Source: a virus. Taken from it: a stretch of 39,789 nt of DNA. Below the pieces are notes generated by a model. That model was not told where the DNA came from. It saw only the letters and a program-made list of their open reading frames with translations, and ran no database searches. Location of the stretch: positions 1 to 39,789 of the IMG/VR virus record IMGVR_UViG_3300003702_000032; one strand, written 5' to 3'. Both the position numbers and the translations under genes were made by a program. Positions 18,221 through 38,186 of the stretch are shown piece after piece; positions within the stretch are counted from its first letter, which is position 1; each line of letters starts with the position of its first letter.

Positions 18221-18309
18221 TGGCTCCGGGAGGTGGGATCGAACCACCATGTCCTGCTCAGGACCCTAGATAAACTGTCTAGTGCGTCTACCGTTTCCGC
18301 CATCCCGGA
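18221..18309 (-). tRNA. Class II tRNA, Leu-type body with GUU (Asn) anticodon, A33 and G73
   Basis: 89 nt with the CCA end encoded. All stems are perfect: acceptor TCCGGGA/TCCCGGA (7 bp), D stem GCG/CGC, anticodon stem CTAGA/TCTAG (5 bp), variable-arm stem GTCCT/AGGAC with loop GAGC, T stem GGTGG/CCACC with loop TTCGATC. The D arm (GGTAGACGC) and long variable arm are tRNA-Leu-like. The 7-nt anticodon loop is CAGTTTA, so positions 34-36 are GTT (Asn) and position 33 is A rather than the near-universal U. U1-A72 and discriminator G73 are tRNA-Asn-like; tRNA-Leu normally needs A73. It lies 8 nt beyond the stop of the AsnRS-like gene. Amino acid identity is inferred; a scanner may report it as undetermined or pseudo. 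Confidence 0.85.
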
Positions 18310-18317
18310 TTTGTTCT

Positions 18318-19169
18318 CTACATATTAGCAACAACTCGTCTTACACCATAATCTTCTTGAGCTCGTATCAATCGTGTTAAACCTATACCCCCACCTACTC
18401 TAGGTACCATGTCATAACTCAAGAACTCTTCCAGTTCTTTTTCTACACGATCTTTACCAAACTGACCAAACAACAAATCAGCATACATACCTTCACTGAT
18501 TGTATGGAACTGTTCTCTCATTTCATCAGCATCAGATGATCGCTCCGCTGACCCTATAGTTTCTTGTCCTGAAATTATAACATCAATCTTTGCAGCTGTA
18601 CCATCTCCATTCTGTTTCATATTCCAAAAAGGACTTGTATTATTTGGAAAGTTTTTAATCATACATACTCGACCTTGCCATTTTTTGCACATAGCTTCTT
18701 CATGCTCATGGGTTAGTTCTGTTACCCCAAACTCTCCACACCACTCGTTATAGTCTTTGACTATTATACTATATCGAGTTCCCATCCCAAGATGCTCCAT
18801 TAGTTCTTTTTCCATCTGTTCTAAATCTTCTATGTAACCAGGAAACTCAAATTCAAACATAGGAAATATAGTTTCATGTCTGCCTTCTACTATTTCCTTC
18901 TCGGCTCTATAAGATGTGGAGATACAAAAAAACCCCGGGACTGAGGGGCGTTTAAGTAATTCGTATTCAAGCCACATTTGGCCTGTCTGAGGCAGGGGCC
19001 ATACTTCTCCTGCATAATTGTATGTTGATACGGTAGTTGGATCTTCACATGCTGCTAATATTGATAATCTGTTTTGTGTGTGTACTTCTTGAAAATTTCG
19101 GTCCAAAAAAAACGACCTCAACTGGGTCGTTGCATTAGTAAACTTCTCTGGGTCAATTAACTGTGTCAT
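18318..19169 (-). CDS. Minimal AsnRS-like class II aminoacyl-tRNA synthetase core
   Basis: A 283-aa class II (D/K/N subgroup) catalytic core. Motif 2 lies at residues 81-109 (FCISTSYRAE, then GRHETIFPMFEFEF) with ATP-contacting R88 and the R97-H98-E99 cluster. KNFPNN...MKQNGDGTAAKIDV (residues 172-196) parallels the KNYPKD...MRLNEDG...MDV block of bacterial AsnRS. GQETIGSAER (201-210) parallels AsnRS GEIIGGSQRE. Motif 3 is GGGIGLTRLIRA with R266. Full AsnRS has about 430-470 aa with an N-terminal OB anticodon-binding domain; that domain is absent here. Archaeal AsnRS-related asparagine synthetases have the same size and are the main alternative. The tRNA directly downstream favours a synthetase. 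A late-type promoter and GAGGA ribosome site precede it. Confidence 0.82.
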   Translation of the reverse strand: MTQLIDPEKFTNATTQLRSFFLDRNFQEVHTQNRLSILAACEDPTTVSTYNYAGEVWPLPQTGQMWLEYELLKRPSVPGFFCISTSYRAEKEIVEGRHETIFPMFEFEFPGYIEDLEQMEKELMEHLGMGTRYSIIVKDYNEWCGEFGVTELTHEHEEAMCKKWQGRVCMIKNFPNNTSPFWNMKQNGDGTAAKIDVIISGQETIGSAERSSDADEMREQFHTISEGMYADLLFGQFGKDRVEKELEEFLSYDMVPRVGGGIGLTRLIRAQEDYGVRRVVANM

Positions 19170-31472: not shown

Positions 31473-31676
31473 TTAAATGTCATTATATCCCATAGATTCA
31501 GCGCCCAGTTTGGTAAATTGTTCCATCTCAAAATCGTCTTTTCCTGCACCACAATCTGGACACACCCAATCTTCTGGTACATCTTCCCATCGAGTTCCAG
31601 GTTTAATTCCATCTTCTGGCCACCCTTCTTCTTCATCATAAATCCATCCACATATGATGCATATATACATCTTCAT
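31473..31676 (-). CDS. Rubredoxin
   Basis: A 67-aa protein from the ATG at 31676, which overlaps the TGA of the SufT-like gene (ATGA); the longer frame to 31727 is rejected. Rubredoxin motifs: [36 protein letters not shown] and GAGKDDFE, with the four iron-binding Cys in C-x2-C and C-x2-C, spacing of a classical 50-55-aa rubredoxin plus a short C-terminal extension. It carries single electrons at low potential in the cytoplasm; possible partners here are Fe-S assembly or oxygenase/halogenase chemistry, which is inference. Confidence 0.9.
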
Positions 31677-32002
31677 AGTAGGCCCATCTGCAATTTTGTA
31701 TGAGAAGGGATCATGTCTGGACCCCACTGTGGTTCAAATGTCATTTCTACATCTACTATATCTACGTCTGGCACTTCACAAGCTTGCTTGACTTCTTTAT
31801 ATAACTGATCTCCTACCGGACAAAATGCAGAAGTCAAGGTCATGGTCACCTTACAGTATCTCTCATCTAACCAAATCTCATAGATCAATCCGAGATCGTA
31901 TACGTTGGTAGGGATTTCAGGATCATATACTCGGCGCAGATTAGCAACAATCTTATCTACCGTAGGATTCTCTCCCTCCATATATTGTTCAACGTGTGTC
32001 AT
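31673..32002 (-). CDS. SufT/MIP18-family Fe-S assembly factor
   Basis: A 109-aa DUF59/MIP18 (SufT, PaaD-like) protein. Motifs: [20 protein letters not shown], the family hallmark DPE-P-x5-DLGLI, and [16 protein letters not shown] with the conserved Cys, then [19 protein letters not shown]. The family helps deliver or mature Fe-S clusters. It lacks the SufT N-terminal extension and is close to the PaaD/MIP18 core length. It lies between the HAD gene and rubredoxin, in the same operon as SufB. Confidence 0.88.
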
Positions 32003-32006
32003 ACCA

Positions 32007-32366
32007 TTAACCTAATCCAACTTCTTCCCAATCTATATCATTCCACCCTTCATCTCTAGGTACATTTACAGCATGAGCTTTTACCCTAGGTCCAACATCA
32101 TTTATCAATACTCTACCACCGTCTGCATAACCCATCAAAAGTATATCAAACGGTATACCTAATCTTCGGAGTTCTGATTCTGTTCTTTCTCTTACCGATT
32201 CACGACGACCTGTTATTAGTATGATGTTATGTCCCTGTGCTTCCCACGACTTCATACGTTCTAGAACCCCCGGCAACAGCTTATGTTCTTTGCTCACTAT
32301 TCCCAAATGTCCCAAACCTGTATACTCTGTTAAAGTTCCATCAATATCACAAATAATAGTTTTCAA
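32007..32366 (-). CDS. HAD-family phosphatase
   Basis: A 119-aa HAD-superfamily hydrolase. Motif I CDIDGTLTEY (D7xD9), motif II NIILITGRRESVRERTE, and a short C-terminal region with LINDVGPRVKAHAV. This is the small capless type often found in phages, related to polynucleotide kinase 3'-phosphatase-like or KdsC-like proteins. The substrate cannot be told. The motif IV acid pair is reduced (IND), and no cap domain is present. It is adjacent to the CxxC membrane protein (start 32366/stop 32367). Confidence 0.8.
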   Translation of the reverse strand: MKTIICDIDGTLTEYTGLGHLGIVSKEHKLLPGVLERMKSWEAQGHNIILITGRRESVRERTESELRRLGIPFDILLMGYADGGRVLINDVGPRVKAHAVNVPRDEGWNDIDWEEVGLG

Positions 32367-32687
32367 TTAATGCATCTCATGGCCATGATTTAAATGATGT
32401 TGAGTTGCAATAGCTTCCCAATTCATAGCATACACTACTACGGTTGCTATCGCTGCACCCACAATAATGCCTTGTGTAAATCGTTTAATAGTCTTCCAAT
32501 TCTTTGCTCGTTGCTCAGGACTAAAGGCTTTCCATTTTTGGTAACCCTTATGAAACTTCCACATAGAGTAGGCAGTAAGGACTACAGCCAATCCTATCAA
32601 CCATGGTGTATACGGACTGTCTATAGCCAGTACACCCATGCCAATCAGAAAGGCAATCAGTCCGTTAATCCAACATATCGGGCACAT
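32367..32687 (-). CDS. Membrane protein with N-terminal CxxC and His-rich tail
   Basis: A 106-aa protein beginning [20 protein letters not shown]. Three hydrophobic spans: about residues 6-22, 28-42 and 70-88 (GIIVGAAIATVVVYAMN), with a basic loop between. The C-terminus is QHHLNHGHEMH. The CxxC plus His tail suggests metal (iron or copper) or redox handling, which would suit the neighbouring Fe-S genes; that is inference. The start overlaps the SufB stop by 1 nt. No family recognised. Confidence 0.7.
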   Translation of the reverse strand: MCPICWINGLIAFLIGMGVLAIDSPYTPWLIGLAVVLTAYSMWKFHKGYQKWKAFSPEQRAKNWKTIKRFTQGIIVGAAIATVVVYAMNWEAIATQHHLNHGHEMH

Positions 32688-34111
32688 TATCCTACTGACC
32701 CCTCCATTGAAATCTCTAGTAACTTGTTTGCCTCAACTGCAAACTCCATAGGCAGCTTAGAGAATATGTCCTTACAAAATCCATTCACAATAAGATTCCT
32801 TGCATCTTCAGGACTAATGCCTCGTTGCTGACAATAAAACAATTGGTCCTCACTAATCTTTGATGTAGTAGCCTCATGTTCTACTGTCGCTGTGTTATTC
32901 TTGCACTCTATATATGGGTTAGTATGAGCTCCACACTCATCACCCATCATCAAGGAATCACATTGCGTATAGTTCTTAGCATTGTCTGCCCCTTTACCAA
33001 TCTTCACCAGGCCTCTGTATGTGTTATTGCCATGACCGGCTGAGATACCCTTAGAGATAATCGTGGATGTAGTATTCTTTCCTATATGATACATCTTAGT
33101 GCCGGTGTCTGCCTGTTGGTAGTTACCAGTAAAGGCAACAGAATAGAACTCACCCACACTTTCATCGCCTTGTAATATACACGACGGATACTTCCATGTA
33201 ATGGCACTACCTGTCTCTACCTGTGTCCAGGTGATCTTACTGCGGTAGCCTTTACACTTACCACGCTTAGTAACAAAATTGAAGATGCCGCCTTTACCAT
33301 CTTTGTCGCCTGGATACCAGTTCTGCACAGTTGAATACTTGATCTCTGCATTGTCTAAGGCGACTAGCTCAACGATAGCCGCATGGAGTTGGTTCTCATC
33401 ACGCATTGGTGCAGTACAGCCTTCTAGATAAGATACAGACGAACCTTCATCTGCGATTATCAATGTCCGTTCAAACTGTCCTGTGTCCTCACTGTTGATT
33501 CGGAAATAGGTACTGAGTTCCATCGGGCATTTTGTATTCTTGGGGATGTATGCAAAACTACCATCACTGAATACTGCGCTATTCAATGCAGCGAAATAAT
33601 TATCACTCTGTGGAACGACACTGCCGAGGTACTTCTTCACCAGTTCTGGATACTTCTCTACTGCATCACTAAAACTGCAAAACAAGATACCCATCTCCTC
33701 TAACTTGGCAGCGAATGTTGTACCCACACTGACACTATCGAATACTGCATCTACTGCCACATTCAATAACTTCTCTCGCTCTCGTAAAGGGACTCCTAGT
33801 TTCTCAAAATCATCAAGGATCTCTTGTGGTACTTCATCTATGCTATTATACTTCTTCTTCGGTCTAGAAAAATAAATGATGTCCTGATAGTCTATCGTGG
33901 GGTATGTTATGTTAGGCCAATGTCCAGGCTCTTCCATTTTGAGCCAACGCTGATACGCCTTCAGTCTCCAATCGAGTAACCATTGGGGCTCATTCTTCTT
34001 CTCACTGATGGCTGTAATGACTTGTTCATTGAGGCCAGGTGGAAACTGTTCCATCTCCACATCTGTTGTGAAACCATACTTGTATGGTTCTGCTGTATTA
34101 ATGTATGTCAT
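32687..34111 (-). CDS. sufB: Fe-S cluster assembly scaffold SufB
   Basis: A 474-aa SufB (E. coli about 495 aa). N-terminus [20 protein letters not shown], then [19 protein letters not shown]. The C-terminal beta-helix/core has [17 protein letters not shown] (with the conserved scaffold Cys), [37 protein letters not shown]. SufB normally works with SufC (ATPase) and SufD to build Fe-S clusters; neither is in this window, so the phage protein probably joins host SufC/D. It is complete with all recognisable conserved blocks. The ATG overlaps the stop of the oxygenase gene upstream by 4 nt. Confidence 0.95.
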
Positions 34112-34776
34112 TCTTGACTCCCTATAGTTTGTAACGACATCTTAATTTTGCTTAGGTCGTCCACATACCCATCTATTAAACAATCAAAAGATAGGGACCA
34201 CCGTGATTGAGTTGACTGATTAACACCTATTGAATGGGTAGTCTGGCTTGGGAATATCAATAACAGGCCTGGTGCTGGTTCTAAAAACCACCTATCACTG
34301 TTGTAATAATCGTTTTTCGTTACTGAAAGCCTCACAGTATCGGAGTTTAAATAGTTATGATAACCACCAGGTTTGTGAAACAGTATATTCCCAGCGTTTT
34401 CTGGCATCTCCATATACATCACTCCAGATAACATAGAATTGGTATGGGTATGCGGTTGTCCCCAATGGCCTGGTTGATGTTCTAGTACCCATGATCGGTG
34501 CATATTAAGCCCATCAAACACCACATGGTAATAATCGTTTACGAATTCATGTATTTGCTCCAATACCTGCTTTTGTAATGGTGCACATATATCATGGTCA
34601 AGTACTTTTTTATCCGTTGATAGGTTACCTACATGCACGATTTCACCTGCCGAGTTAATGGTTTCATTTACATATTCTTTTGTCTGTTTCAGGCTTTTTA
34701 GATGTTCCTGCACATCCGGATCTATGGTCACCTTACCCATGTATAAACTAATCGGAAATAGCTGCAATATATTCAC
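34108..34776 (-). CDS. 2OG-Fe(II) oxygenase (TIGR02466-type)
   Basis: A 222-aa putative dioxygenase. [20 protein letters not shown] (about residues 105-125) carries the first iron-binding His and the S-G-V-x-Y-M strand; [18 protein letters not shown] then SRWSLSFDC (about 172-197) carries the distal His and the 2OG-binding Arg. This is the layout of the TIGR02466 family of phage and marine bacterial oxygenases. The substrate is unknown. The start is GTG at 34776 (an ATG TGA sits just before). It overlaps SufB at the end. Confidence 0.8.
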
Positions 34777-34807
34777 ATTTCAATGACCTTGTCGTGGACA
34801 TTTTTCA

Positions 34808-35377
34808 TTATCCTGTCTTTAGCATAACATTCCCTGAAACAGATATTCTCTTACCTTTATCTGAAACTGGATGAACACAATGCGGAAGCAATGCTGGAAA
34901 TATTATTATTCTTCCCTCATCTTCTGGCGTCAAATGGATTTTATGGGACTCTGGAAACCCTATTATTGTAGGATATGTAAATTCAAAAATAGATTCTGCC
35001 GGAAGATCAACCCAACAAGTATAACTATAAACGCCATCATGGGTATGAACTGGGATATAATGAGAATCTTTCTGTATATTTATCCAAGGGTCACCAAATC
35101 CACACGGTAAATTCTTATCTAAAAGTTTCCACCCCCTAATATAGTCAAAAACTTTCTCATATTCTTCAATTAAATCATCCACAACACTAAAGAGAGAATT
35201 TTTATTTTCTTCTCCCATATAATAATGGTTTGATGTTTTCGGATAAGTTTCTGAAAGGCCAGTAACATGCTTTACATTATTTTCTTCGGCTCCATCACAC
35301 TCATTTTTTAGTGATGCAAGTAATTGAGATGGTAGGGTATCCCTTACATACCCATAATTTTTTAAAACATGGTGCAT
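34808..35377 (-). CDS. Second 2OG-Fe(II) oxygenase-like protein
   Basis: A 189-aa protein. YIPVHTHDGVYSYTCWVDLP (about residues 106-127) has the H-x-H/D-type iron site, and RIIIFPALLPHCVHPVSDKG then KRISVSGNVML carries the distal His and Arg. Same fold family as its neighbour at 34108-34776, but shorter and with little obvious residue identity, so an old duplication or separate acquisition. Such phage oxygenases may modify tail proteins, nucleotides or host targets; substrate unknown. Confidence 0.75.
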   Translation of the reverse strand: MHHVLKNYGYVRDTLPSQLLASLKNECDGAEENNVKHVTGLSETYPKTSNHYYMGEENKNSLFSVVDDLIEEYEKVFDYIRGWKLLDKNLPCGFGDPWINIQKDSHYIPVHTHDGVYSYTCWVDLPAESIFEFTYPTIIGFPESHKIHLTPEDEGRIIIFPALLPHCVHPVSDKGKRISVSGNVMLKTG

Positions 35378-35392
35378 AATTTTGATAGCGTG

Positions 35393-35794
35393 TCAATGAC
35401 CATACCCCGGGCCGGTTGCCCCACCGCATCCACCACAAGTTCCTGTACCACCTTGCTCTTTAAACACATCAGAAAATACAAATGTCGGGCTCATACCAGA
35501 AGTATCATAATCTATTGTAGATCCCACCATAAACTGATACGCAATAGGATCGACATATACATACGGAGCAACCTCTATATCTCGCTCTTCCTTGCTATCT
35601 GCGAAAGTCAAAGAGTGTTGCATCCCACCACATCCGCCTCCATATACATACGGACGGACAGCCTCCATCTTATTCTCTGCACACATGGAAGCTATCTTCT
35701 CTCTCGCCGATTCTGTTATTGTAATACCTACCTTGGGTGGGACAAACTCTTTTTCGTTAATCCCCTTAAAGTCATCCCATAAACTTTTTAACAT
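35393..35794 (-). CDS. A-type Fe-S carrier-like protein with altered Cys motif
   Basis: A 133-aa HesB/IscA-type protein. Family features: VGITITESAREKIASMCAEN, YVYGGGCGGMQHSLTFAD (first ligand Cys), YVYVDPIAYQFMVGSTIDYD, MSPTFVFSDVF. The C-terminal ligand motif, CGC in IscA/ErpA, reads TCGGCGG here, with one extra Gly between the two Cys. A 20-aa N-terminal extension (LKSLWDDFKGINEKEF) and a Gly/Tyr/His tail are also unusual. The role would be holding or passing Fe-S clusters to targets. It lies just before the 189-aa oxygenase gene. Confidence 0.85.
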   Translation of the reverse strand: MLKSLWDDFKGINEKEFVPPKVGITITESAREKIASMCAENKMEAVRPYVYGGGCGGMQHSLTFADSKEERDIEVAPYVYVDPIAYQFMVGSTIDYDTSGMSPTFVFSDVFKEQGGTGTCGGCGGATGPGYGH

Positions 35795-35796
35795 TG

Positions 35797-36045
35797 TTAT
35801 TTCCTCTCTGGAAATGGCTCACCTGGAAACCAAACAGACCACATTGGAAAATCTGGATCTAGTTTTGTCCCTAACCGTGAATCTTTGGATCGTGGAAAAT
35901 CAGGGTGTGCTCTTACTACGCTATGCCGTTCACTAAACCATTCTTCTTTAGTCCGTGTTGAACTGTCAAGTTCTCCTACACTCGTTTCACCTAGCACTGT
36001 ATAGGTTTTGGCATACGCCGAATGTTCATAACCCTTATGCTTCAT
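35797..36045 (-). CDS. Hypothetical protein
   Basis: An 82-aa protein with many Ser, Thr, Glu and Pro (MKHKGYEHSAYAKTYTVLGE...). The C-terminal half has FPRSKDSRLGTKLDPDFPMW and a repeated D-P-D-F-P idea. No family recognised. It lies directly between the C2H2 finger gene and the A-type carrier, 2 nt from each. Confidence 0.6.
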   Translation of the reverse strand: MKHKGYEHSAYAKTYTVLGETSVGELDSSTRTKEEWFSERHSVVRAHPDFPRSKDSRLGTKLDPDFPMWSVWFPGEPFPERK

Positions 36046-36047
36046 TT

Positions 36048-36287
36048 TTATCCTCCCATCGAATCATCTATGCCATGAAAACCACCAACCGTTTCTTTTC
36101 TTATCGGACTAGAATGATTCTTATATACGTGCTGTCTAACCTGTCCTATATCTCTATTATTAAAATCACATTTAATACACTGCCAATGCGGTGCGTGTTC
36201 GGCCGTAATATATCCTACCGGACCAGTATTTTTAATATACTTGTCGTACCATCCATCTCTATTATCGAAATATTCCATTGAACTCAC
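36048..36287 (-). CDS. C2H2-type zinc finger protein, second copy
   Basis: A 79-aa protein with C-I-K-C, twelve residues, H, four residues, H (CIKCDFNNRDIGQVRQH then VYKNH, about residues 36-57). Spacing is identical to the finger at 20245-20457 though flanks differ. The start is GTG at 36287, overlapping the previous stop (GTGA), or ATG at residue 4. Probably a small DNA- or protein-binding regulator; inference. Confidence 0.65.
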   Translation of the reverse strand: MSSMEYFDNRDGWYDKYIKNTGPVGYITAEHAPHWQCIKCDFNNRDIGQVRQHVYKNHSSPIRKETVGGFHGIDDSMGG

Positions 36288-36511
36288 CTATAGGTGCTAT
36301 TAGCTAAGGCCGCTCGGCCGATCCCTATTCCTTTATGCCAATATATATCTTCACCATTTTTACGAGCTTCTGTAGCTGTCTCTATAGTATTATATGTGCC
36401 AAGATATATTTCGTGTCCTCGTAGTCTACGGTTAGTTCTTGGGTTGGGTATCGTCACTCTGTACCCACCACCTTTAGCTTCAGTGATACCCTCTGGAAGA
36501 TTTTCTTTCAT
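36284..36511 (-). CDS. AP2-like DNA-binding domain protein
   Basis: 75 aa from the ATG at 36511, which overlaps the previous TGA by 1 nt (TGATG); a longer frame to 36535 exists. GGGYRVTIPNPRTNRRLRGH then EIYLGTYNTIETATEARKNG fits the AP2/ERF-type three-strand-plus-helix domain (Y-R-V..., Y-L-G-T-Y-x-T-x-E-x-A-T-E-A). In phages such domains usually accompany HNH homing nucleases; here it stands alone, with no HNH motif. Stand-alone use as a transcription regulator or a nuclease remnant are both possible. Confidence 0.7.
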   Translation of the reverse strand: MKENLPEGITEAKGGGYRVTIPNPRTNRRLRGHEIYLGTYNTIETATEARKNGEDIYWHKGIGIGRAALANSTYR

Positions 36512-36759
36512 CACGGACATATGCCTATAGGGCACTTCGTTGACCAGTTTATCATGTATATTAAACCTAATACTCCCATACCTACAACCCCCAACACTAA
36601 TGACAGTAATACATATCCCACATACTTGTGTTGGTAATCATCATCATGTTCTTCTTCACTCATCTCTCGCTCACTCCGTATATTATCCAAATACTCTTTT
36701 AAAAGCGGTGAAGCACTTTCTTCACCATACCCACGTTGGTATCTACCCCAAATTGTCAT
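36511..36759 (-). CDS. Small single-span membrane protein
   Basis: An 82-aa protein. Acidic, charged N-terminal half (EYLDNIRSEREMSEEEHDDD), then a hydrophobic span (about residues 48-70: GYVLLSLVLGVVGMGVLGLI) and a short end with two Cys (STKCPIGICP). Topology unknown. The ATG overlaps the halogenase stop by 4 nt. No family recognised. Confidence 0.6.
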   Translation of the reverse strand: MTIWGRYQRGYGEESASPLLKEYLDNIRSEREMSEEEHDDDYQHKYVGYVLLSLVLGVVGMGVLGLIYMINWSTKCPIGICP

Positions 36760-37874
36760 GTAACTCCCTCATACCAAATTTTAAAGTTCCAAAATTCCCA
36801 TTGACCATACGTCTCCTTACTATCATTGCTCAAATCACTCAAATCTGACCATCTCTCATTTTTAGCGGCCGTCACAAATCTATCAAATTCTGTATCTTGA
36901 ATATTTAGCGTTTGGGCATACTTCCAAAAAAGAGTATCATATTGTGATCCAAATTGATAATGCCACAATATAAAAGTTTCTAACCTATGTAAATGCTTTT
37001 GAATACACTCAATAGCGTATTCCCATTCCCAGTTTTTCTTGATAATAACCTCAAATGTATACCTCATCCACTCCATATATGCTGCTACAGCCGTAGATTC
37101 TAAAGGCTCTAGAAAAAACAAGCGATTTCCATTTGATATGATTCTGTTGTCTATAACAGGATTATTAGTAACATAACTTTTAAAATTTAAATGCTGCGTT
37201 AGTTCAACATCAAATAATTCTTGAAAATGACTTGTCGCTTCTTCTTGAGATGTAATATCTTTATTGTAAATATAACCAATTGAATAGGGATAAGAAGGAG
37301 ACTTAGGAATAGTAGGTATCATAAAACACCACCCATCAGGAGTAGCTACAGCTCGTGTCCATTTAGTGTTAGACATATCTTTAAGAGGTTTAGCTAGTAT
37401 TGCCGAGTTCACAGGGCTCACCAACTCCTTACAATCGTCCAAACTTTGTGGCTTACCTCTACAGTCAAACACATAATCAGCATCTATATCTTCAATAGTT
37501 TCTACATTATCTTCTTTTACCTCAAACCAACCTGAATTTAAAACAGCCTCTTGAAGTTTTAAAGGAGAATAATGCATAGCCGTAGTATCGGCAGGAAATC
37601 CATGATAAATTACTTCACTAGTTTTTCCCCAACCTTCATACATGAAACCCATCTTAGGTGTAGCATCTATAAGATTGCTATGCCAATCAAACCTCAAAGT
37701 TTTCCATAAAAATCGAGGAACTCCTATGATTGTGGCTTGCCCCACCTTTTCAGTTGGAACATCAGGATCGTATCTTAACTCTATTTGAATATCGGGATCA
37801 TATCTCGTATAATATGCGTAATGTAATGCAGTTAAACAACCAGCATTACCTCTCCCTACCACCGCTATTTTCAT
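36756..37874 (-). CDS. Flavin-dependent halogenase (tryptophan halogenase family)
   Basis: A 372-aa FAD-dependent protein. FAD-binding G7-R-G-N-A-G12 (VVGRGNAGCLTALHYA); EKVGQATIIGVPRFLW (43-57), equal to the G-E-A-T-x-P block; TPKMGFMYEGW with K74 at the place of the catalytic Lys; GWCFMIPTIP (about 196-205), a variant of the family W-x-W-x-I-P motif; FLEPLESTAVAAY (about 272-284) with the E/S pair. The protein is shorter than PrnA-type enzymes (about 540 aa). A viral member, VirX1 of cyanophage Syn10, halogenates (prefers iodide) diverse substrates, so activity is possible. An FAD reductase is needed and is not in the window. Confidence 0.85.
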   Translation of the reverse strand: MKIAVVGRGNAGCLTALHYAYYTRYDPDIQIELRYDPDVPTEKVGQATIIGVPRFLWKTLRFDWHSNLIDATPKMGFMYEGWGKTSEVIYHGFPADTTAMHYSPLKLQEAVLNSGWFEVKEDNVETIEDIDADYVFDCRGKPQSLDDCKELVSPVNSAILAKPLKDMSNTKWTRAVATPDGWCFMIPTIPKSPSYPYSIGYIYNKDITSQEEATSHFQELFDVELTQHLNFKSYVTNNPVIDNRIISNGNRLFFLEPLESTAVAAYMEWMRYTFEVIIKKNWEWEYAIECIQKHLHRLETFILWHYQFGSQYDTLFWKYAQTLNIQDTEFDRFVTAAKNERWSDLSDLSNDSKETYGQWEFWNFKIWYEGVT

Positions 37875-37877
37875 ATA

Positions 37878-38186
37878 TCACGCCACAAATGATTCCCCAC
37901 AACCACACGACTGCCGCTCAGGTATACCGACTTTAAACGCTGGCATGAAATCACCACCATAATCAACTGTTGCACCATCCATATATTCAATAGTATATTG
38001 ATCTATCACAAATGTCTTGCCCTTACCAAGATCCCATGTTACATCACCATCTTCCGGAGATCCAAAGCCCCAATGTGCCATTAGGCCTGAGCAACCCCCG
38101 CCACGCAATTCATAGCGTACGGAGGCGTTGTCACCTACAATGGTACTCATCTGAGCCTTAGCGGCCTCAGTAAGGGTGACGTTCAT
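37878..38186 (-). CDS. A-type Fe-S carrier (IscA/ErpA/SufA-like)
   Basis: A 102-aa A-type carrier. VTLTEAAKAQMSTIVGDN, YELRGGGCSGLMAHWGF (first Cys), FVIDQYTIEYMDGATVDYGG, and C-terminal RQSCGCGESF with the canonical C-G-C pair. All three cluster ligands are present and length is normal. A-type carriers accept Fe-S clusters from a scaffold such as SufB and pass them to apoproteins. It follows the 37-aa membrane peptide (ATGA overlap) and is followed after 3 nt by the halogenase. Confidence 0.92.
   Translation of the reverse strand: MNVTLTEAAKAQMSTIVGDNASVRYELRGGGCSGLMAHWGFGSPEDGDVTWDLGKGKTFVIDQYTIEYMDGATVDYGGDFMPAFKVGIPERQSCGCGESFVA

Follow-up and report, generated by a model that had tools for sequence, protein, structure and literature searches.

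What use would a phage have for a tRNA encoded directly behind a pared-down aminoacyl-tRNA synthetase? The question is raised by one locus in a 39,789-nucleotide stretch of viral DNA (IMG/VR record IMGVR_UViG_3300003702_000032), referred to here as the window. An initial annotation of the sequence had described a 283-aa synthetase core of the D/K/N class without an anticodon-binding domain, followed after 8 nt by a tRNA, and proposed that the two form a private synthetase/tRNA pair. Both components proved sound, as the enzyme matches Pfam tRNA-synt_2 (E=1.7e-15) and ARAGORN calls a tRNA-Asn(gtt) at 18221-18309 on the minus strand. The tRNA is also the perfect cloverleaf that had been described, with all helices paired, U1-A72, G73, a Leu-type D arm and a long variable arm, as judged from sequence and fold. 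It scores 95.1 bits with covariance model R1, which was built from the tRNAs of relatives with the window tRNA among them; the Rfam tRNA models do not reach their threshold on it. The enzyme belongs to PHROG 29758, whose function is listed there as unknown, and no pyr genes adjoin the pair in the window. Table 1 presents an overview of the locus. Elsewhere in the window, an Fe-S module (31473-38186) comprises a SufB-like protein, two A-type carrier-like proteins, a SufT-like protein (PF01883) and a rubredoxin, and a tryptophan-halogenase-like protein (PF04820, E=6.5e-26) is encoded at 36756-37874; cyanophage P-SSM2 likewise has an annotated tryptophan halogenase.

Table 1. Features of the enzyme-tRNA locus, in window coordinates.
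Feature	Position	Strand	Basis
AsnRS-like class II (D/K/N) synthetase core, 283 aa	18318..19169	(-)	Pfam, PHROG, AF2, fold search
Presumed amino-acid pocket segment QTGQMWLE (residues 61-68)	18966..18989	(-)	conserved in phage and cellular homologues; aligned to AsnRS SSQLYLE
Motif 2 region R88..E90..G96-R97-H98..E106..E108	18846..18908	(-)	family alignment
ETIGSAER (residues 203-210), corresponding to E-x-x-G-G-S-x-R of AsnRS/AspRS	18540..18563	(-)	family alignment
Motif 3 GGGIGLTR (residues 259-266)	18372..18395	(-)	family alignment
8-nt spacer, stop codon to tRNA	18310..18317	(-)	direct reading; 6-11 nt in most homologous loci
Class II-like tRNA, mature part, anticodon GUU, U1-A72, G73	18224..18309	(-)	ARAGORN, covariance model, fold
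Encoded 3' CCA	18221..18223	(-)	direct reading
Anticodon G34-U35-U36 (A33 = 18276, U37 = 18272)	18273..18275	(-)	direct reading
17-nt variable arm	18249..18265	(-)	hypervariable in family, 5-39 nt

The enzyme and its tRNA form a real conserved cassette, far beyond chance, since 20 of 23 tRNA base pairs have changed on both sides (34 aligned members, with 98% of helix cells paired) and the gene-tRNA order is kept across hundreds of loci in ocean viruses. A scan of IMG/VR with the window enzyme identified at least 598 relatives, and in most of the 80 that were retained the gene is followed immediately by a tRNA of this kind. A second IMG/VR round, which used other family members as queries and served as an out-of-sample test, found the tRNA in 181 of 195 loci with sufficient sequence, at a median distance of 9 nt from the stop codon (usually 6-11 nt). 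The search for this neighbor pair in other phages, suggested by the initial annotation, was thereby answered, and most phage relatives have an intact tRNA rather than a degenerate one or none. When the tRNA was sought without regard to the protein, all 27 matches with enough flanking sequence had the enzyme upstream, and the other two were at contig ends; no cassette tRNA without the enzyme was encountered in that search. Cells, and a minority of the phages, have the enzyme without the tRNA. Most relatives outside the cyanophage type encode the 3' CCA, which those of the cyanophage type lack.

Cyanophages P-SSM2, P-SSM5 and P-SSM7 carry the same cassette, although GenBank labels its parts separately as 'tRNA ligase' (T4-GC 194) and 'tRNA-Asn'. 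In P-SSM2 it is located in a nucleotide-metabolism block with the order purL, purM, mazG, purH, enzyme-tRNA pair, gp61, nrdA and nrdB. The P-SSM2 tRNA (AY939844.2) lies at 162083-162168, right after the 'tRNA ligase' gene; GenBank has it as feature PSSM2_199 at 164094-164179, where it would fall within a different gene. Outside tailed phages, a Pithovirus LCPAC304 protein (BFVD A0A481Z9R2) has the same fold with 44% identity, extending the enzyme to a giant virus. In one close phage relative, an ordinary tRNA-Leu(UAA) is found downstream of the enzyme (L044, 5858-5941) in place of the odd tRNA, and a tRNA of this type is a possible donor of the odd tRNA's body. The literature on phage synthetase-tRNA pairs, covered mainly outside subscription journals and preprint servers, yielded no description of the pair or of its function; as had been anticipated, the pair appears not to have been described before.

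The predicted structure of the window enzyme (AF2, pLDDT 91.7) has as its best PDB fold match 1x54, an AsnRS with Asn-AMP. Profile comparison places it closer to AsnRS (2.8e-14) than to the archaeal asparagine synthetase 3p8t (1e-4), and a firm placement among asparagine synthetases, which would have undermined the original proposal, was not found. As judged from the sequence and the model, the class II motifs and an adenylating core are present. The N-terminal OB anticodon-binding domain is absent, the 283 aa being core only, and homologues are of similar length; a stand-alone core of this kind is a trait shared with the archaeal asparagine synthetase. The enzyme reaches the cut-off of neither the AsnRS family TIGR00457 (38 bits against 342.6) nor NCBIfam asparagine synthetase A (20.9 bits against 389). 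Within the segment QTGQMWLE, which we take from knowledge of the family to be the amino-acid pocket, Leu-Glu aligns with the Leu-Glu of AsnRS and takes the place of the Lys-Gln of AspRS. A small tree, whose branches are long, sets the family apart as a clade from AsnRS, AspRS, LysRS and EpmA, and phage members are nested among cellular ones; two of the eight 'AsnRS' rows (L223 and L224) are wrong reading frames and were left out of this reading. Across phage and cellular enzymes, more than 70 positions are at least 97% conserved. Since the active-site motifs are among them and are identical in phage and cell, the same chemistry is suggested for both.

The cellular homologues, which are 52-61% identical, are found in Patescibacteria, Bacteroidota such as Aureispira, Midichloriaceae, the complete chromosome of Pasteurella atlantica, and others. 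None has an adjacent tRNA; a few loci labeled as cellular do, but these look like contigs of phages that were binned into MAGs. Their recurrent neighbors encode dihydroorotate dehydrogenase (pyrD), orotate phosphoribosyltransferase (pyrE) and OMP decarboxylase (pyrF), and some loci also have an ArgH-type lyase and an amidohydrolase (among L086-L165, for example L114, L119, L125 and L161). Because these close homologues adjoin pyrimidine genes without any tRNA, the enzyme would seem to have a role of its own.

The genomes that bear the cellular enzyme point in the same direction. Twenty-two were surveyed, several of them incomplete MAGs or small Patescibacteria, and completeness affects the counts of absent genes. 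No aspartate carbamoyltransferase (PyrB) scored above the cut-off in any of the 22, and CarB, the large carbamoyl-phosphate synthetase, was present in two and missing from 20. PyrC (TIGR00857) was likewise above cut-off in none, with 14 genomes lacking any match and six having PyrC-like proteins of about 200-260 bits, but the model does not detect every genuine PyrC, as only 11 of 14 controls exceeded the cut-off. OMP decarboxylase was found in 18 genomes and not in the other four. In the order of Aureispira, PyrB is present in none of five gene carriers and in 136 of 144 non-carriers (Fisher p=2e-6), a value that ignores the kinship of the five carriers, which probably reflect few independent events; in the order to which the flavobacterial carrier belongs, only one of 296 genomes has the gene, too few for the same comparison. 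PyrB is thus absent while later pyr steps remain, and the simplest reading would be that the cellular enzyme replaces early steps of pyrimidine synthesis. Since AsnB (11/22) and AsnRS (12/22) are encoded in only about half of these genomes, free asparagine as a substrate is not assured. No such route was described in the literature on alternative pyrimidine pathways, which was again covered mainly outside subscription journals and preprint servers; the picocyanobacterial asnB-pyrB2-pydC cluster consists of different genes (PMC10119275).

Turning to the tRNA, its fixed and free positions were compared among 163 distinct members, 113 of them from second-round loci. The identity bases are nearly invariant, with U1-A72 in 162 and G73, G34 and U35 in all 163; position 36 is U in 160 and C in three. 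Hence the suggestion of a Leu-like body with Asn-type identity bases was well founded. In addition, position 20a is A in all 113 members of the second set. By comparison, position 33, a universal U in tRNA anticodon loops, is U in 126, C in 18, A in 17 and G in two, and position 37 is U in 135, A in 15, G in eight and C in five. The window tRNA itself has the loop C32-A33-G34-U35-U36-U37-A38, lacking both U33 and the purine at 37 that would carry t6A. Only 21 of the 163 combine U33 with a purine at 37. Among 67 other tRNAs from the same phage loci, 65 have U33 and 66 a purine at 37; the three that deviate are, by their sequence, wrongly parsed members of the cassette family, and without them both features are kept in about 64 of 64. 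From these fixed and free positions, and since the ordinary tRNAs of the same phages keep U33 and the purine, selection would appear to keep the bases for charging enzymes and not those for the ribosome.

The variable region ranges from 5 to 39 nt and is conserved in neither length nor sequence. An enzyme that reads this arm, as the initial annotation required of its synthetase, was therefore rejected, and so was a Ser or Leu identity of the tRNA, since A73 is absent and the large variable region is not maintained. Some arms exceed those of usual class II tRNAs (27-38 nt in L074 2863-2968, L076 5832-5938 and L014 5859-5955), and ARAGORN often misses or misnames such tRNAs. Others shrink to 6 nt and become class I-like with the identity bases still fixed (L058 5794-5868 and L060 5800-5874). 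A cassette-like tRNA was also sought in the 22 enzyme-bearing cellular genomes, and the best model matches, of at most 69 bits against 95 for the window tRNA, were ordinary tRNAs; those checked include Leu, Ser and Tyr. A replacement of canonical tRNA-Asn was discarded as well, given that a normal tRNA-Asn occurs in the 484-kb phage and in a 328-kb phage without the cassette tRNA.

Which enzymes, then, would read the fixed bases? The anticodon and G73 make up the identity set for Asn and Asp, while U1-A72 is the determinant by which GatCAB amidates Asp-tRNA-Asn, with G1-C72 and U20a as antideterminants; in yeast tRNA-Asn, t6A37 hinders aspartylation (PMC9976931, PMC4206432). The phage tRNA matches this published list, and U37 removes the t6A site. 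Its fixed bases would fit the needs of a host AspRS or AsnRS together with GatCAB, rather than those of the ribosome. Since the anticodon is conserved even though the phage enzyme has no anticodon-binding domain, a host synthetase is the likelier reader of the anticodon. The C36 variants are consistent with an AspRS that tolerates U or C at position 36. They also hint that the tRNA is kept out of translation, since a C36 variant delivering Asn would miscode Asp codons.

These observations are tentatively explained by a two-part module consisting of a pyrimidine-related enzyme derived from AsnRS and a non-decoding Asp/Asn carrier tRNA, a reading to which we give somewhat less than even confidence. 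The enzyme would belong to a metabolic family that has kept the adenylating core of AsnRS, has dispensed with the anticodon domain, and in cells stands in for aspartate carbamoyltransferase. Its most likely reaction would be the adenylation of a substrate derived from asparagine, as a step toward dihydroorotate. One conceivable route, offered as a guess, is that Asn, bicarbonate and ATP yield a carbamoyl-adenylate whose ring is closed by the side-chain amide, by analogy with TsaC, which makes threonylcarbamoyl-adenylate. The tRNA would be charged by host AspRS or AsnRS through G34, U35, U/C36 and G73, and host GatCAB, reading U1-A72 and the lack of U20a, would turn Asp-tRNA into Asn-tRNA. The carrier could in this way supply asparagine to the enzyme in hosts that make asparagine mainly on tRNA. 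Such a use outside translation had been left open by the initial annotation and is favored here. Synthesis of a pyrimidine precursor from asparagine by the phage enzyme, with a tRNA helper, would account for the conserved pair, the fixed bases, the neighboring pyr genes and the lack of pyrB in homologue-bearing cells. Counting against a non-decoding carrier are the U33 in 126 of 163 members and the 21 loops that could decode normally.

In its boldest form, the proposal makes the viral tRNA a metabolic cofactor that AspRS loads with Asp and GatCAB converts to Asn. The AsnRS-derived enzyme would then form dihydroorotate in one ATP-dependent step that bypasses the regulated carbamoyl-phosphate synthetase, aspartate carbamoyltransferase and dihydroorotase. 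The tRNA-free enzyme would represent a hitherto unknown pyrimidine route in Patescibacteria, some Bacteroidota and others. As a whole, this version is rather unlikely to hold.

Among the alternatives, the most probable is the private translational pair. Here, a minimal AsnRS, recognizing the acceptor end, would charge a tRNA that reads AAC/AAU in phage mRNA and is insulated from the host. The AsnRS-like fold and pocket, the fixed Asn-type acceptor end and anticodon, and the strict linkage (27/27) agree with such a pair, as do the 77% of members that keep U33 and the 21 able to decode. The idea is nonetheless unlikely, and less probable than the pyrimidine and carrier reading, mainly because of the anticodon loop: decoding of AAC/AAU is at odds with U33 and purine-37 in only 21 of 163. 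Moreover, the anticodon is conserved opposite an enzyme with no domain to read it, C36 variants would read Asp codons, and closely related cellular enzymes have no tRNA at all. Nor are the late structural proteins Asn-rich as once supposed, since the large ones in the window contain 4.7-6.4% Asn, like its other genes. Of the private pair, then, the conserved partnership is supported and the translational role is unlikely.

It has been proposed that some phage tRNAs escape nucleases through changes in the anticodon loop (PMC10264068), and the cassette tRNA deviates at positions 33 and 37. It might thus be a tRNA-Asn that resists host anticodon nucleases and, with its own charging enzyme, replaces the cleaved host tRNA. 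This is improbable, since a replacement must decode, and U37 with its lost t6A site next to A33 or C33 is unlikely to do so well. The other tRNAs of these phages have normal loops, PADLOC gives no match for the enzyme, and the pyrimidine context of the cellular homologues is left unexplained. Doubtful to a similar degree is an enzyme resembling the archaeal AS-AR, which would make free Asn from Asp and ammonia with the tRNA as an Asn sensor or carrier. The stand-alone core and the weak similarity to 3p8t suit it, but AsnRS matches far better, the pocket has Leu-Glu instead of Lys-Gln, and neither the missing pyrB nor the pyrD/E/F linkage follows. Very improbable is a GluQRS-like ligase that places the amino acid on a tRNA base rather than the 3' end; truncated synthetases reportedly do so (Salazar 2004, cited in PMC9437257) and G34-U35 are fixed, but U1-A72 and G73 would have no role, U33 varies although the queuosine enzyme needs it, and cellular homologues adjoin pyr genes. 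Just as remote is a passenger tRNA that has no amino-acid role and acts only on the mRNA of the enzyme, whose 3' end it would define through RNase P/Z processing. The spacing of 6-11 nt past the stop codon suits it, but it would not fix G34-U35-U36, U1-A72 and G73, and most members outside the cyanophages encode CCA.

If the pyrimidine and carrier reading is true, one class of phage tRNAs would have a role outside translation, a widespread marine virus cassette would be tied to nucleotide supply, and the textbook first steps of pyrimidine synthesis would have an unrecognized replacement. Even by itself, the occurrence of an AsnRS paralogue in cells that lack PyrB marks a testable gap in genome annotation.

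Of the known systems, the 'tRNA ligase' and 'tRNA-Asn' of P-SSM2, P-SSM5 and P-SSM7 are the same cassette, for which no paper naming the pair or its function was found. The AsnRS (TIGR00457) and AspRS cores share with the phage enzyme the class II D/K/N fold, motifs 1-3 and an Asn-like pocket segment, but the phage enzyme has no anticodon-binding domain, falls far under the family cut-off and forms a separate clade. Archaeal asparagine synthetase A (AS-AR, 3p8t) is also a stand-alone core of about 290 aa; it is more distant in sequence, and in the present family phage members have a conserved tRNA while cellular members track the loss of PyrB. The cassette tRNA resembles phage tRNA genes in general in being encoded by tailed phages and recognized by ARAGORN, yet it does not keep U33 and a purine at 37 as its ordinary neighbors in those loci do. 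The indirect Asn pathway (ND-AspRS, GatCAB and tRNA-Asn) uses as determinants the very bases that are fixed in the phage tRNA, which differs in its class II body, a loop unsuited to decoding, its phage origin and its tie to an AsnRS paralogue. Finally, the staphylococcal tRNA-Gly for peptidoglycan is a non-proteinogenic tRNA with a metabolic use outside translation, as presumed for the phage tRNA; the amino acid, host and presumed use differ, and the phage tRNA is encoded beside its presumed enzyme.
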